Of a DNA stretch of 58,573 nucleotides, positions 23,555 to 58,573 are shown in pieces. Source of the stretch: a virus; the IMG/VR virus record IMGVR_UViG_3300031857_000201, positions 1-58,573 of that record; one strand, 5' to 3'. Within the stretch, counting starts at the first letter, position 1, and every line of letters starts with the position of its first letter. The position numbers were made by a program, and so were the translations under genes. The notes beneath the pieces were generated by a model that had not been told where the DNA came from, did not search any database, and saw nothing but the letters and a program-made list of their open reading frames with translations.

Positions 23555-24974
23555 AGGGGTTGACCCTCTTTGGCTGGGAGTCGTCGGAATACGAACTCTC
23601 GTCATTGTATACCGGATCAATGTCCAAGAATCCCATATCACGCAAAATTCTCAAAGCTTGAGTCGTGGCATCAACCAAGTCGTCATGCCGAACTTCAGGG
23701 AAAGCGCAAAGCTGACTAATCAAAGGCTCCACCCAATCACGTGCAAAGCCGGCTTTCTTCATAGACTCAGGCACGTAGACTCGACCCCGCTTAATGATGG
23801 GTGCCACGATGTTCAGCCTTTGCATCTTGTCAGCCAGCCCAGGGTTGTAGCTTCTTACGGGGACTCCGGCTCTTTGAAGATCTTGAATGAGACTGATACC
23901 GGCCGACTTATCTTCGATGAGTACAAGGTCGACCTTCTTCCCGTGCCCAAACTCATTTTCGTCCCCATAAATCGACTTAGACTCCTCAACAACTTTTGGT
24001 CGTAAGTCGGGGTACTGCAAATGCTCTTCCCAGCAATCAACGACCATTGCTGCAAGGGGTTTGTCTTCGGAAGGCTTGAAGATGCCCAGGACGACGCAGG
24101 CTGTTGGATCATTGTGGGTCTTGTCCGAAGTAGCACAATCGTAGGACTGTACAACATACTCAAACTTCGGGAGAGGCTTCTCAGCAGGCCAGAGCTTGAA
24201 CCAGTCACGCTTGACGATACCCGCCTCTTCAGGGTCGATAATCTCGGCATGAATTTCTTGGCGCCCAAGTTTGGTCCCCTCATACTGCAAAATTTGTTTC
24301 TGGAAGGTCGGAGCGAGGTTCTGGAGGTTGTCGTAGGTACTGGCCGAGGTATACACCACATCATCCCCATCGCGGGCCACCAGATCCACAATGAGAGGCT
24401 TGGGCTTAGGTGTTGTGGTACAGATCAGCCGAGGGTTCTTGCCAAGCCGCAATCCGAATTGCAGCATATCCCATGCGTCATCCAGGTAATCCCATGCTGC
24501 CAACTCATCCAGCCAACCGCCATGGAACTGAGGACCACGGAATCGTTCCGGTTCTGAAGCTGGGATGCCTTTGATGATAGACCCGTTTGTGAGTCTCAAC
24601 TCGTGAAGAGACTTGGTGTACGTCTCAATGAGAAGCTGTGGGATGACATTAAGCAGTCCGGAATCGCCTTCAAAGCAAACATCACGAACATCTCCGGATG
24701 TTGGTGCTGAGACCAACCAACGTGTGCCAGGCTGAGTCCAAGCTTCCCACCACACCCACTCGGCTGCGCACCGAGTCTTGCCTGCGCCACGTCCTGCAAG
24801 GAGTAACCACACACTCCACCAATCGCCGGATGGAGGGATCTGATGCTTACCGGCTTTGAGGAGCCACTTCATCCGCGCCAAAGTCGCGGCTTTTTGCTCA
24901 GGCGGAAGTTTGTTGAGATCCGGCCCTTTGCGTATCTTCTCGGCTAATTGCTCACTTACCTCGGGACTCAGCAT
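23544..24974 (-). CDS. terL: Terminase large subunit (476 aa)
   Basis: The ATPase domain shows Walker A GRGAGKT (residues 61-67), Walker B/catalytic glutamate WLDE (154-157) and the CTTTPKP coupling motif (185-191). The RNase H-like nuclease domain shows SYDCATSDKTHNDPTA (D279), LIEDKSAG (E354/D355) and HDDLVDATTQAL (430-441), the expected metal ligands. It translocates DNA into the procapsid through the portal and cuts concatemers. The circular, apparently permuted map fits headful packaging. It overlaps the small subunit by 23 bp and the 1128-aa gene by 11 bp. Confidence 0.95.
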   Translation of the reverse strand: MLSPEVSEQLAEKIRKGPDLNKLPPEQKAATLARMKWLLKAGKHQIPPSGDWWSVWLLLAGRGAGKTRCAAEWVWWEAWTQPGTRWLVSAPTSGDVRDVCFEGDSGLLNVIPQLLIETYTKSLHELRLTNGSIIKGIPASEPERFRGPQFHGGWLDELAAWDYLDDAWDMLQFGLRLGKNPRLICTTTPKPKPLIVDLVARDGDDVVYTSASTYDNLQNLAPTFQKQILQYEGTKLGRQEIHAEIIDPEEAGIVKRDWFKLWPAEKPLPKFEYVVQSYDCATSDKTHNDPTACVVLGIFKPSEDKPLAAMVVDCWEEHLQYPDLRPKVVEESKSIYGDENEFGHGKKVDLVLIEDKSAGISLIQDLQRAGVPVRSYNPGLADKMQRLNIVAPIIKRGRVYVPESMKKAGFARDWVEPLISQLCAFPEVRHDDLVDATTQALRILRDMGFLDIDPVYNDESSYSDDSQPKRVNPYAV

Positions 24975-25419
24975 CGGACTGCCTCACAGCCAAAAGCTCG
25001 TTCAACAGCTCACCCGTGAAGTCATGCGTATGCTCAACTTGCACAGGCCCGTCGTTCTTACCCGTGAGCTCAACTTTGGAGTTCTCCCGATATTGCTCGG
25101 GGAACCGCGCAGCCATGCTTCTTGACCAGAGACCAGTGTTTAGCTTTGGGCTACCAGGCGACTCAATGAGATGATTCTCAGCCAGTTCTTCCCAGTATTG
25201 CAGCGCATGCTGTCGTGATATTTCCAAGGCTTCCCGAAAATCCTTGTGCGCAGCTTCCCAATTTGTGAGATTGCTAGGCGGAATGTTGAGTATCGACCCA
25301 ATCGCCCAACGTGACTTGCCCTGCTTGCCAAGCTCAATGACCTGCTCACAATAAGCAGGGTCGTATTTGCTTGGACGCCCTAAAAACTTTCCGTTTTTTG
25401 ATGGAGTCTTGGTAGTCAT
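24952..25419 (-). CDS. terS: Terminase small subunit (155 aa)
   Basis: The likely start is ATG 25419 (MTTKTPSKNGKFLG). Residues about 17-60 (RPSKYDPAYCEQVIELGKQGKSRWAIGSIL...PSNLTNWEAAH, shown in part) form a helix-turn-helix of the type seen in small terminases. A central oligomerisation helix (REALEISRQHALQYWEEL) and a C-terminal LNTGLWSRSMAARFPEQY block follow. It recognises phage DNA and loads the large subunit, encoded by the overlapping next gene. The Shine-Dalgarno site is weak. The region upstream is AT-rich and may hold a promoter. Confidence 0.8.
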   Translation of the reverse strand: MTTKTPSKNGKFLGRPSKYDPAYCEQVIELGKQGKSRWAIGSILNIPPSNLTNWEAAHKDFREALEISRQHALQYWEELAENHLIESPGSPKLNTGLWSRSMAARFPEQYRENSKVELTGKNDGPVQVEHTHDFTGELLNELLAVRQSDAESRGK

Positions 25420-25475: not shown

Positions 25476-25754
25476 GGGTTACAAAAAATGGTTTCACTTA
25501 GCCAGAACTCTATATATACGAGTGCATATATATATAATATTTATTTTTTATATTTTTTTAGAATTACTGTAACCTTCTATAACTATGTAACTTCCCAATG
25601 GAGCCAAAGGCTTTGAGGGTTACAAAAAAGTTTCAGGTTTCACCCATTTTGATACCACACAATCAACTATCCTTCCAACTCTGACAATATTGCTTTTTCA
25701 GTAATTGCTACAATATCAACCCAACTACGTTGTGTAACCTTCGACTGTGTAACC
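25476..25754. other. Candidate replication origin: AT-rich island with clustered GGTTACA heptamers
   Basis: The 247-bp space between the primase stop (25667) and the small terminase gene includes a 58-bp stretch (25503-25560) that is almost entirely A/T with ATATATATA runs. Around it are five exact copies of GGTTACA or its complement: 25477-25483 (+), 25568-25574 (-), 25618-25624 (+), 25733-25739 (-) and 25748-25754 (-), the last two inside the primase C-terminus. The two plus copies sit in longer similar units (GGGTTACAAAAAA ... GGTTTCAC). Iterons beside an AT-rich unwinding element and next to an initiator/helicase gene are a known origin architecture. No experimental support exists here. 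Confidence 0.45.
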
Positions 25755-27739
25755 ACAAAAGTTGTATATCGATGCGTTTTCCCGTTGATTTTGATCACTT
25801 TGCTGGGCTCACTTTCACCTTGAGCCTCCATTGCGCGACGAATATATTGCGTTTTAGCTTTAGCGTCGTAGCCCCAGCGTTCGCATAAAACAGATAGTTG
25901 CGCAGGAGTAAAAGCAGCTTCTCCGTTGCAATGCTCACGTGTCCAGTCAGCCAATTCTTTGGCAAAAGCTTCTAATGGAGACTTGCTTAGCTCAATCGCT
26001 TTCTGCTTATACGCCGTCATTGGCGCTGGAGCGTAGGGATCAAAATTACTAATATCACGACTCAAATACCAGTCAAGAACAGCTGAGAAGCCAGAGCCTT
26101 GGTTGGATCGAGCCCAGCGCATCATGGCACTAACACGTTCCAGAATATCTTGTTGACTGAAGGTAGGGCACTTATAAATAGCTTCTCGACGGCTACTGGC
26201 GCCCATATGAGTGATGTAGGGCTTATTGGATGTGAATACATAATTCACGTAATTCTTGACGGTGTATTGAGCGCCATATTTGTTGTTGATAAGAATCTCC
26301 TTGCCGGTAATGAGATTCTTTAATTTAGCGCTATGGTCATCGCGGTCTGAGCTTGGCTCATTGACCACCACAAAGATCTTTCCTTTCATGACGCCGTTGA
26401 AGTTGGAGAAAAGATCATCTGGCCCCAGCGTAGCAGCCGGAGAGTTTTCTCCCATACCAAGCATTTCAGCGATGAATTCAGGAATGGCTGATTTGCCCAT
26501 ACCTTCCATGTCATGAATGAACTGTGGCGTGGTGTTATTACGCCTCCATGGGTATTGAATGATATTGGCTACCCAATCATGCCAGTATTTGACAAACTCT
26601 GGCTCAGCCTGAAAGAAGTAATCACAAAAATCTAGATATGGGCTGGGGTCTCCAGGTATAGGCTCATGAGCCCAATCTTTAAATAGGTTATATTTCTTAT
26701 CCGGCGTAATCTGCAAACCTTGGAACTCCGGATACATACCTACCTGCTCTATTTTGCAGCAGCGTGGCCATTTTTTGTACTCATCCAAAAGCGCTATATC
26801 TTTGGTGGTAACGTTACCACGACTGCTAGTATTGACCTGAGTAAAGTATTGCTGCGCACTATCGATTTTGGCTTTGTTCCAATTAAGAATGAGCCCGTCC
26901 TTTAAGCGAATCACATCTCCATTGAAGAGAGCGTATTGAGTCTTGAACTCATAAAGCTTAGTTTCCATTGTATCAACACCATTCATCACCACCGATGTGG
27001 CAGTTAATACACTTGCAAGGCTACCATTGCTTAATAGGTGGTCGTCAATAGCATACTTAGAGCCCACGCCAGGGCCAAATTTGCCAACGCGGCAAAGGTG
27101 AACCACAGCCCCCAGGCCACGTAGAGTGACAGCCAACTTAGTTTCAGCCATGGCAACTTGTTCATTGGGCTCGCCATCTTCTTCTTTTCCGTCGTAATCA
27201 AAGACAATATAAACAGTTCGGTGTTTTTCTTGGAAGCTGGTTTTGCGCCTCCAAGCTATTTTCATCAGGTCGGCGTGTAGAGGCAGGCCAGATTTGTCAG
27301 TCCAACTGGTGACGCCTGCCAAGCCAATAGGCGCGTAGAGGCTGCCGTCAGCGGTAATTTGCTTCAGAATCTGATATGCTTTGAATTCCCCTTCGGTGAT
27401 GATGATGGGAATATCCACATCCTGAGCAATAGCTTTCCAATTGGCGCCAGGTGGGAAATAGATATGAGAACCTGAAGCTCTAGGCTGAGAGTATTTCATT
27501 TTGCTCTTGGGGAAGAGCAATCTGACTCGATTGAAGCCAGTTGGTTGGCCTGAGAAATCGTAATAAGGTAATTTGACGGACCATTCTTTGGTGTGGCCAA
27601 GAAGGTCGTATGTCTCATCAGGTGTCAGAAGTTCTAAGCCGAGAATCTTGCAATCGGTATCATCGAACTGTCTATCTGCTGTGAAGCTGGTATATAATTG
27701 CTCAGGTGATGTTGTTTGGGCGGCGAAACCGGATGACAT
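25667..27739 (-). CDS. Primase/helicase (DUF3854 Toprim-like + D5-like/DUF5906 helicase), 690 aa
   Basis: Residues about 90-250 form a Toprim-like primase domain of the DUF3854 type (PIIITEGEFKAYQIL with the catalytic glutamate, then VYIVFDYDGKEEDGEPNEQ). Residues about 390-560 look like the SF3/D5-type helicase of DUF5906: FIHDMEGMGKSAIPEF is the Walker A region (first position D instead of G/A), KIFVVVNEPSSDRDD the Walker B region and YVFTSNKPYITHMGASSRR the sensor/arginine part. The C-terminus is a winged-helix-like tail. It primes and unwinds DNA for the family-A polymerase encoded on the other arc. It is the first gene of the minus arc, and AGGGA precedes ATG 27739. Confidence 0.8.
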   Translation of the reverse strand: MSSGFAAQTTSPEQLYTSFTADRQFDDTDCKILGLELLTPDETYDLLGHTKEWSVKLPYYDFSGQPTGFNRVRLLFPKSKMKYSQPRASGSHIYFPPGANWKAIAQDVDIPIIITEGEFKAYQILKQITADGSLYAPIGLAGVTSWTDKSGLPLHADLMKIAWRRKTSFQEKHRTVYIVFDYDGKEEDGEPNEQVAMAETKLAVTLRGLGAVVHLCRVGKFGPGVGSKYAIDDHLLSNGSLASVLTATSVVMNGVDTMETKLYEFKTQYALFNGDVIRLKDGLILNWNKAKIDSAQQYFTQVNTSSRGNVTTKDIALLDEYKKWPRCCKIEQVGMYPEFQGLQITPDKKYNLFKDWAHEPIPGDPSPYLDFCDYFFQAEPEFVKYWHDWVANIIQYPWRRNNTTPQFIHDMEGMGKSAIPEFIAEMLGMGENSPAATLGPDDLFSNFNGVMKGKIFVVVNEPSSDRDDHSAKLKNLITGKEILINNKYGAQYTVKNYVNYVFTSNKPYITHMGASSRREAIYKCPTFSQQDILERVSAMMRWARSNQGSGFSAVLDWYLSRDISNFDPYAPAPMTAYKQKAIELSKSPLEAFAKELADWTREHCNGEAAFTPAQLSVLCERWGYDAKAKTQYIRRAMEAQGESEPSKVIKINGKTHRYTTFVVTQSKVTQRSWVDIVAITEKAILSELEG

Positions 27740-27939: not shown

Positions 27940-27976
27940 TTTCTTTGTGTAATGTCTGACTGTTGAAAGGAGCTTT

Positions 27977-31615: not shown

Positions 31616-31636
31616 AGGCCCTTCGGGGCCTTTTTT
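31616..31636 (+). terminator. Intrinsic terminator (GGCCC-TTCG-GGGCC-T6)
   Basis: A GGCCC/GGGCC stem, extended by an A-T pair, has a stable TTCG tetraloop and is followed by six T residues, 3 bp after the stop of the preceding gene. This is a textbook Rho-independent terminator for the rightward transcript. Confidence 0.9.
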
Positions 31637-31656
31637 GACTATTGAAAGGAACTACC

Positions 31657-31878: not shown

Positions 31879-31942
31879 TATGGTGTATATTTGTTCTGTT
31901 GTCCACTCGTCCACTCGTTGTTGATTATTGAAAGGTAGTCAT

Positions 31943-41673: not shown

Positions 41674-41695
41674 TGACCATTGAAAGGAACTTATC

Positions 41696-56689: not shown

Positions 56690-58573
56690 TTATTGGTTTT
56701 GTAGCAGTGAAGTAGGTGGGGTAAAGTTACCGGTGTAACGAGCATAGCCACGGGTTACGCGAACATCTTGCATGTACCCTACAAAATACTCTAAAATTCC
56801 AGAATTATTAAGAGCGCCAACATAATTCAATGTGCCGGTCATCAAAGCAGTAGTGGAGGCAATGGCGGTACTCGTATAAACAGATGTGCCATTTATAAAA
56901 AGATTAAAAGTCCCACCTGACCTTACTACTGCAATGTGATTCCAAGTATTGGATGTTACCGTCCCTACTTCACTTGAAACGATAGCCCACGCGCCACCAG
57001 TAGTAGATACTAATAAATACGCTTTGTTGATGTTGAGACCAACTCTACATGCAGCAAAACTGTTCGCGTTAGCTCCTAAATATAATATAGTTTGAGCCGC
57101 TGACGAAGTTGTATATACCCAAGCTTCTGCCGTAAAATCTCCAAGAGTTCCAATTGATGCAGTAGGGCTGTTTAATACCAAATAATCACTGGTGCCATTA
57201 AACAACATTGATGAACCACCGAACTTATTTATCGCAGTACTGATTCTTGCGCCACCCACATTCTCCAGCACATTCTTGCCGGTCGTGTCTACGATGCCTG
57301 CGTTGGTGAAGTTGAGTAGAAGGTTTGCCGCACCTGCACTGACTGTCGTAGTAAATGGGGAAGTAGGAACAGTGTAAGTAGAGCCTGTGTATAAAGCACC
57401 GCCTTTTGTAACACGGACACCGCCGCAGTAACCATTAAAAAATAAGTTACTTCCACCGGATATCAGCGCACCACCGATGTATGTACTCCAAGTTCCGGTA
57501 TTTAAAGACCCTACAATAGTTTGCGTTGTCGCAGACCGTGTGCCATTCAAGTATCCGTAAAAAGTATTACCAGTTCTTACCAGCGCAATATGATTCCATG
57601 CGTTTGGAACTACAGCGCCAACATTGATCGTGTAATCAGTTGTTCCGCTGTATGGACGAACTCTTGCTGACCCACTAAGAATAAATATATTGTACTGAAG
57701 GCTAGTTCCAGTGGAAATATTTCCATTATTTCTAGTTACTATTGGTTGTTCTGCTGTAACTCCAGTAGCATAAAACCAACACTCAACAGTAAAATCGCCC
57801 GACGAAACATCCAGTGCAGCATTATCAGCAGCAGTCAAATAATCCCCCGTCCCATCAAAGTACCCACTGCCGCCTATCGTTGCTGGTGTGTAGGCGACGT
57901 TTGTTTGGAAAGGGCTGAAGGCTTGGACGGATGGGGTGCCAACAACGGTTATTGCAAATCCGAAGCCAGCATTAGCCGTCCCATTATCAACAAAACGGTT
58001 GGATTGGCAGGTTAGTAGTGATGTGTTGGTGATGTTGGTTAATGGTGTTGTGCTTGGGGTGAAGTTGCTGGTGTACAAGGCGGTTCCCTTCAGTACACGC
58101 AAGTTAGAGATGTAACCGTTTAAGAAACTTGCGCCAGCACTCGCCGCTATTTGTGGCGTATATGTACCAGCAAAAATGGTGTCAGTTCCAATGTTATAAG
58201 TTGAGCCTACCTGAACTCCGTTCATGAACAGATACAAGCTTGAACCACTTCTACAAGCGGCAACATGATACCAAGTGTTTGCACTAAGACTACTTAGATT
58301 GGCAACTGGATTTATATTTGTTGAACCGTTTGTCGTATAGCTAAAATATAACTGGTAAGAACCCGCATTGTTGTAGAAATAAAAAAACCAATCTTTTTGA
58401 GATGCATTATTCCATTTTGAAATAATTGTTGAAATGCCAGATGCAGCCGGAAGTGCCGCTAAATAAACCCATCCTTCGACAGTAAAGTTGCCGTTTCCAA
58501 ATTCAAGCGCAGTAGTGTCAGGTATTTGAATGTAATCAGTCGTTCCATTAAAAAAGTTACCCCACCCCGTCTG
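56690..58573 (-). CDS. LamG-domain fibre protein, C-terminal part (continues from 1-1720)
   Basis: This stretch is the remainder of the 1158-aa protein begun at 1720. It is open from the window end to the TAA at 56690 and holds further LamG modules (for example SGYFDGTGDYLTAADNAALD, GDFTVECWFY, HIALVRTGNTF, RVTKGGALYTG) and a final one ending in YARYTGNFTPPTSLLQNQ. An apparent start at 58237 is only an internal methionine. The stop is followed by small membrane-protein genes of the lysis block. Confidence 0.85.
   Translation of the reverse strand, partial: QTGWGNFFNGTTDYIQIPDTTALEFGNGNFTVEGWVYLAALPAASGISTIISKWNNASQKDWFFYFYNNAGSYQLYFSYTTNGSTNINPVANLSSLSANTWYHVAACRSGSSLYLFMNGVQVGSTYNIGTDTIFAGTYTPQIAASAGASFLNGYISNLRVLKGTALYTSNFTPSTTPLTNITNTSLLTCQSNRFVDNGTANAGFGFAITVVGTPSVQAFSPFQTNVAYTPATIGGSGYFDGTGDYLTAADNAALDVSSGDFTVECWFYATGVTAEQPIVTRNNGNISTGTSLQYNIFILSGSARVRPYSGTTDYTINVGAVVPNAWNHIALVRTGNTFYGYLNGTRSATTQTIVGSLNTGTWSTYIGGALISGGSNLFFNGYCGGVRVTKGGALYTGSTYTVPTSPFTTTVSAGAANLLLNFTNAGIVDTTGKNVLENVGGARISTAINKFGGSSMLFNGTSDYLVLNSPTASIGTLGDFTAEAWVYTTSSAAQTILYLGANANSFAACRVGLNINKAYLLVSTTGGAWAIVSSEVGTVTSNTWNHIAVVRSGGTFNLFINGTSVYTSTAIASTTALMTGTLNYVGALNNSGILEYFVGYMQDVRVTRGYARYTGNFTPPTSLLQNQ
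58447..58573. repeat. Terminal direct repeat, right copy (identical to 1-127)
   Basis: Exact duplicate of bases 1-127; see the left copy. Removing one copy leaves 58,446 bp. Confidence 0.95.

Follow-up and report, generated by a model that had tools for sequence, protein, structure and literature searches.

In PICI origins, an AT-rich region lies between two sets of iterons (PMC6092414). In satellites of the PICI/SaPI type, such as SaPIbov1 and EcCICFT073 with their Pri-Rep proteins, SaPI Rep recognises its iterons through the C-terminal domain (PMC6092414, PMC7581432), and the C-terminus binds them directly 3' of the Rep gene (PMC7581432). The C-terminal domain of the SCCmec helicase Cch2 also binds repeats downstream of its gene (PMC7581432), like the reader proposed below, although SCCmec has only three iterons and a separate polymerase-primase, unlike the locus described here. 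The satellite phage P4 has an annotated crr immediately 3' of the alpha gene, with ten octamers, some in each orientation, and a second iteron set (ori) lies about 4.5 kb away; the P4 iterons are of type I, with the octamer GGTGAACA. In phage P1, PacA binds hexamers at the pac site, where short repeated motifs flank a central segment near the terminase gene.

The DNA analysed here (the window) is the whole of IMG/VR virus record IMGVR_UViG_3300031857_000201, with a length of 58,573 nucleotides. Its two ends share an identical 127 bp (1-127 and 58447-58573), consistent with the overlap of a circular assembly, and the window is therefore probably a complete, circularly assembled genome. Full terminase genes are present in this 58-kb genome. 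A DNA-level search of named phages gave no match, and a genome-contig search for relatives of the primase returned distant matches only (26-37% identity).

An array of short repeats extends from the last codons of the primase-helicase gene into the space that separates this gene from terS. The first-pass annotation had put it forward as a candidate origin because of five GGTTACA copies within 280 bp. All five were located exactly, as was the longer repeated unit, a 13-mer GGGTTACAAAAAA at 25476 and 25617. The whole window holds 14 GGTTACA copies against 6.8 expected; scaled to 278 bp, the expectation is about 0.03, the value given originally, and the nine copies outside the cluster are near expectation for the window. 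In 60 shuffled genomes, no 7-mer of any sequence reached five copies in 280 bp (maximum 3-4). The five exact copies were, however, not the whole repeat set. Four near-copies (GGTTTCA twice, AGTTTCA and AGTTACA) had been overlooked, and because relatives show these positions to be sites, we counted nine sites, which read >><<<>>[AT]<< along the primase strand. No other 58 bp of the window are as rich in A/T as the accompanying tract (25529-25586), but at 88% A/T its description as nearly pure was slightly strong. The features of the array are as follows.

25748-25754, minus strand: iteron 1, GGTTACA, forward on the primase strand, within the primase 3' coding end
25733-25739, minus strand: iteron 2, GGTTACA, forward on the primase strand, within the primase 3' coding end
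25636-25642, plus strand: iteron 3, near-copy GGTTTCA, reverse relative to the primase; exact copies at the matching position in relatives
25629-25635, plus strand: iteron 4, near-copy AGTTTCA, reverse relative to the primase
25618-25624, plus strand: iteron 5, GGTTACA, reverse relative to the primase
25586-25592, minus strand: iteron 6, AGTTACA, forward, directed at the AT island
25568-25574, minus strand: iteron 7, GGTTACA, forward, directed at the AT island
25511-25563, no strand: AT island, putative DNA-unwinding element, kept in relatives
25490-25496, plus strand: iteron 8, near-copy GGTTTCA, reverse, directed at the AT island
25477-25483, plus strand: iteron 9, GGTTACA, reverse, directed at the AT island
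24952-25419, minus strand: terS, terminase small subunit gene, which flanks the array and is argued below not to encode the reader
25667-27739, minus strand: primase-helicase gene (DUF3854 and DUF5906), 690 aa, putative initiator

Judging from the sequence evidence set out here, a tailed phage probably (probability about 0.8) uses this array as its replication origin, or at least requires it in cis for replication, and the phage's own primase-helicase would recognise it. The origin reading of the first-pass annotation is thus supported by clustering in relatives, by co-variation with the primase C-terminus and by a layout matching P4 crr and PICI/SaPI. A search of open-access papers turned up no description of this origin for these phages. 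The GC-skew minimum, computed on the circular, detrended genome, lay at 27.2 kb, only 1.5 kb away, but this value is confounded by gene orientation.

The layout of the array is like that of P4 crr, and the DUF5906 helicase domain is common to P4 alpha and the window's primase. P4 differs in its octamer and in its second iteron set, whereas a second heptamer cluster was not found in the window; in addition, the window's iterons extend into the primase gene and belong to a full-size phage and not to a satellite. P4 alpha has Zn-ribbon, Toprim, D5_N and Pox_D5 domains (Pfam), none of which was found in the window's primase, where Pfam at E<=0.001 detected DUF3854 and DUF5906 only (no Zn-ribbon, Toprim or D5_N). 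Profile comparison of the two proteins gave no full-length alignment (probability under 1%), though both match DUF5906. As for the PICI/SaPI type, an origin immediately 3' of the initiator gene is found in the window and nearly all of its relatives, with one exception (L054), and the setting of iteron specificity by the C-terminal domain is represented here by strong sequence co-variation only. The iteron sequences differ, and PICI/SaPI are satellites, whereas the 58-kb window has terminase genes and matching ends and looks like the genome of an autonomous phage. By analogy, the array would work like a PICI/P4-type origin, yet the element is not a PICI and lacks the second cluster of P4. The likeness to P1 pac lies in repeats flanking a central segment near a terminase gene; the difference is that the window's repeat type does not follow the terminase.

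Relatives of the primase and TerS were gathered by three collection scans, and after removal of duplicates 110 loci with terS were searched, motif-free, for the densest cluster of any 7-mer. In nearly all of them the strongest cluster lay within about 400 bp upstream of terS, and the heptamer differed by lineage (RGTTACA, RGTAACA, NATTACA, RGATACA or RGTATCA). Among 73 representatives, arrays had about 8 sites on average, and the sites were directed inward on both sides of the AT island in 65. The clustering in relatives, on which the first-pass annotation had made its reading depend, was therefore nearly universal, in the same place and with the same layout. In L054 the primase is located about 4.5 kb away, while a nine-copy AGATACA array remains next to terS, and the array consequently need not adjoin the primase. 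The displaced primase gene of L054 has a 3' end without heptamers, a sign that, at the other loci, copies inside the gene are under constraint at the level of DNA and not of protein; this bears on the two copies that the earlier annotation had placed in coding sequence (VTQSKVTQ), which we confirmed at the 3' end of the primase gene.

Some loci carried additional DNA or repeats. About 250 bp of extra DNA separates the array from terS in L130, L192 and L195, and that of L130 includes a short open reading frame as well as a leader, TGTACAATCTGGCAAAGAGG, that is repeated. L193 also has additional DNA between array and terS, with a tRNA T-arm-like stretch GGTTCGATTCC, although ARAGORN detected no tRNA in it. 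In L147, eight AGGCGTA copies within about 270 bp, at about 2.1-2.4 kb downstream of the terS start, are unexplained.

The C-terminus of the primase is predicted by AlphaFold to be a winged helix (mean pLDDT 85), with the same fold in the full-length model. Its parts that are of concern below are encoded as follows.

25670-25978, minus strand: codons of the C-terminal winged-helix domain (about residues 588-690), putative iteron reader; AlphaFold order H-E-H-H-E-E-H, with winged-helix matches
25754-25816, minus strand: codons of the wing hairpin (residues 642-662) with the co-varying residues 648, 650, 655 and 656, which sit in its two strands in the AlphaFold model
25796-25798, minus strand: codon of residue 648 (Val here), the best predictor of heptamer type

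Structure comparison matched winged-helix proteins, including origin-recognition subunits and the C-terminus of NrS-1 primase, with modest scores; the fold matches were generic (best Z 6), and a Foldseek search of the PDB returned nothing below an E value of 0.06. By sequence, the closest solved relative of the helicase domain is the phage NrS-1 primase (PDB 6k9e, 6k9c; E 3e-13), a primase-helicase whose C-terminal domain aligns with the window's predicted winged helix (Z 4.8). In the mechanism that we propose, the winged-helix domain would bind the heptamers, and the wing hairpin, with residue 648 and its neighbours, would determine the preferred bases. Primase-helicase molecules bound in opposed groups on the flanks of the AT island would load their SF3-type helicase domains as a double hexamer, and these hexamers would melt the island before priming begins. 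Binding, melting, hexamer loading and origin activity are all what we infer from the arrangement of the sites and the predicted fold.

Heptamer type tracked the C-terminal domain of the primase rather than the rest of the protein or TerS, as judged from sequence comparison. Nearest-neighbour agreement with heptamer type was 0.93 for this domain, 0.70-0.74 for the other primase segments and about 0.81 (79-81%) for TerS. Two phages, L073 (RGTTACA) and L167 (RGTAACA), have identical TerS and helicase domains that are 99% identical; their overlapping primase segments differ at ten positions only, most of them located in the wing or in the tail that follows, and nearly every array position is switched between GTTACA and GTAACA. 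One or two relic sites of the old type remain in L073 and L080. Counting heptamer changes by parsimony did not help to discriminate: trees of short segments gave 10-15 changes whichever segment was used.

Among all primase and TerS columns, residue 648 had the highest mutual information with heptamer type. It was Leu in all 30 RGTAACA phages and Val, Met, Ala or Ile in 26 of the 27 RGTTACA phages, the lone exception (L101) falling in a divergent, poorly aligned stretch; in NATTACA phages it was Pro, Ala, Thr or Met (Met in divergent, doubtfully aligned rows). At residue 650, Lys or Arg accompanied the heptamer types whose position 2 is G, and 8 of the 12 NATTACA phages had Thr, Ser or Asn. Six independent switches were counted on a tree built without the primase C-terminus, and residue 648 changed with all six, ranking first of 503 variable columns, followed by columns 669, 655, 668 and 656. 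The sign test for 648 was weak (p about 0.03), this residue having been selected as the best of many columns. Because its codon lies more than 40 bases from the nearest heptamer, the association of 648 is not a coding artefact; that of columns 661-671 partly is. Physical linkage is another matter: recombination could couple the array and the primase C-terminus without any function, and the agreement may be inflated in this way. The residue-level specificity and the independent switches argue against such a coupling, an argument built on six switches only. More tentatively, and with slightly more doubt than confidence, we propose that wing residue 648 picks T or A at heptamer position 4 and residue 650 G or A at position 2, and that origins of this type are common among tailed phages and have evolved through repeated switches of all iterons together, each paired with a change at residue 648.

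A packaging site would account for the position of the array in another way, with TerS bound to the heptamers that flank the AT tract, in the way that PacA binds its hexamers in P1. TerS is a DNA-binding packaging protein, and the array lies directly upstream of its gene; TerS was in fact first favoured as the reader, because in L054 the array stays beside terS without the primase. It was rejected as reader because of the pair L073 and L167, in which the same TerS accompanies different heptamers. Heptamer type also follows TerS less closely than it follows the primase C-terminus, and no TerS column equals residue 648 in the independent switches. Furthermore, the array stays at the primase end where additional DNA precedes terS (L130, L192, L195 and L193), and in distant phages the arrays follow the primase, away from terS. 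We regard a pac site as very unlikely.

Unlikely too, in our estimation, is a purely regulatory array, to which the primase-helicase would bind to shut its own operon or to control terS while the true origin is elsewhere. The location upstream of terS and over the 3' end of the primase gene would suit an operator, and, to judge from the two iteron locations of P4, replication does not have to begin at a cis array. On the other hand, about eight sites in a conserved inward layout around the most AT-rich segment exceed the needs of an operator, and no other heptamer cluster in the window offers itself as the origin. Chance or coding coincidence, which could be argued from the two copies encoding part of the primase C-terminus, is practically eliminated, since none of the 60 shuffled genomes reached five copies and the array is conserved, with altered spelling, over about a hundred loci.

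Across a large set of uncultured phages, sequence alone points to a likely origin, to the protein that would read it and to the residue that probably sets its specificity. With this natural series of iteron switches, it can be tested directly in vitro how an initiator and its eight or nine dispersed sites change together, and the relation of residues 648 and 650 to the heptamer, if true, would be a readable initiator-iteron code. By analogy with PLE and ICP1 Odn, the precedent cited for origin-directed attack and for competition in co-infection (PMC8263062), the pressure behind iteron turnover may come from attackers that target origins or from rivalry between co-infecting phages.

We also scanned 13 distant named phages with related primases for a cluster near the primase end. 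The automated scan detected one in 4 of the 13: TCAGACA nine times in Halomonas H4907, CCCTGCA nine times in Moraxella Mcat4 and CCGCACA eleven times in Stenotrophomonas S1, all after the related primase and well above the null, and, more weakly and at the null level, TGCACCA and TGAACCA four times each in Moraxella Mcat7. A low-complexity TGTGTTGGG array was seen by eye in Pseudomonas pAN, SC_9 and Meadow, the scan filter having skipped low complexity, and the scan found no array at the primase end in the other 6 of the 13 (PW916, ctUtU524, P106B, 1.111.B, ctvy9321 and YuA). By sequence, the arrays of these distant phages appear to be analogous, with repeats unrelated to the window's heptamer.

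In Stenotrophomonas phage S1, the CCGCACA array, at 16-272 bases after the primase stop, overlaps the annotated gp2; this gene may have been called in error on top of an origin. Six AGGGAAT copies, possibly a displaced array, lie close to the beginning of the stretch retrieved for Vibrio phage 1.111.B, at a distance of about 3.2-3.5 kb upstream from the end of the primase. In the window itself, four near-identical copies of TGACTATTGAAAGGAACT were observed on the plus strand (27957-27974, 31636-31653, 31922-31939 and 41674-41691; 0.02 expected), each a few bases upstream of a plus-strand ATG, and these are possibly a shared early-gene leader or ribosome-binding element.
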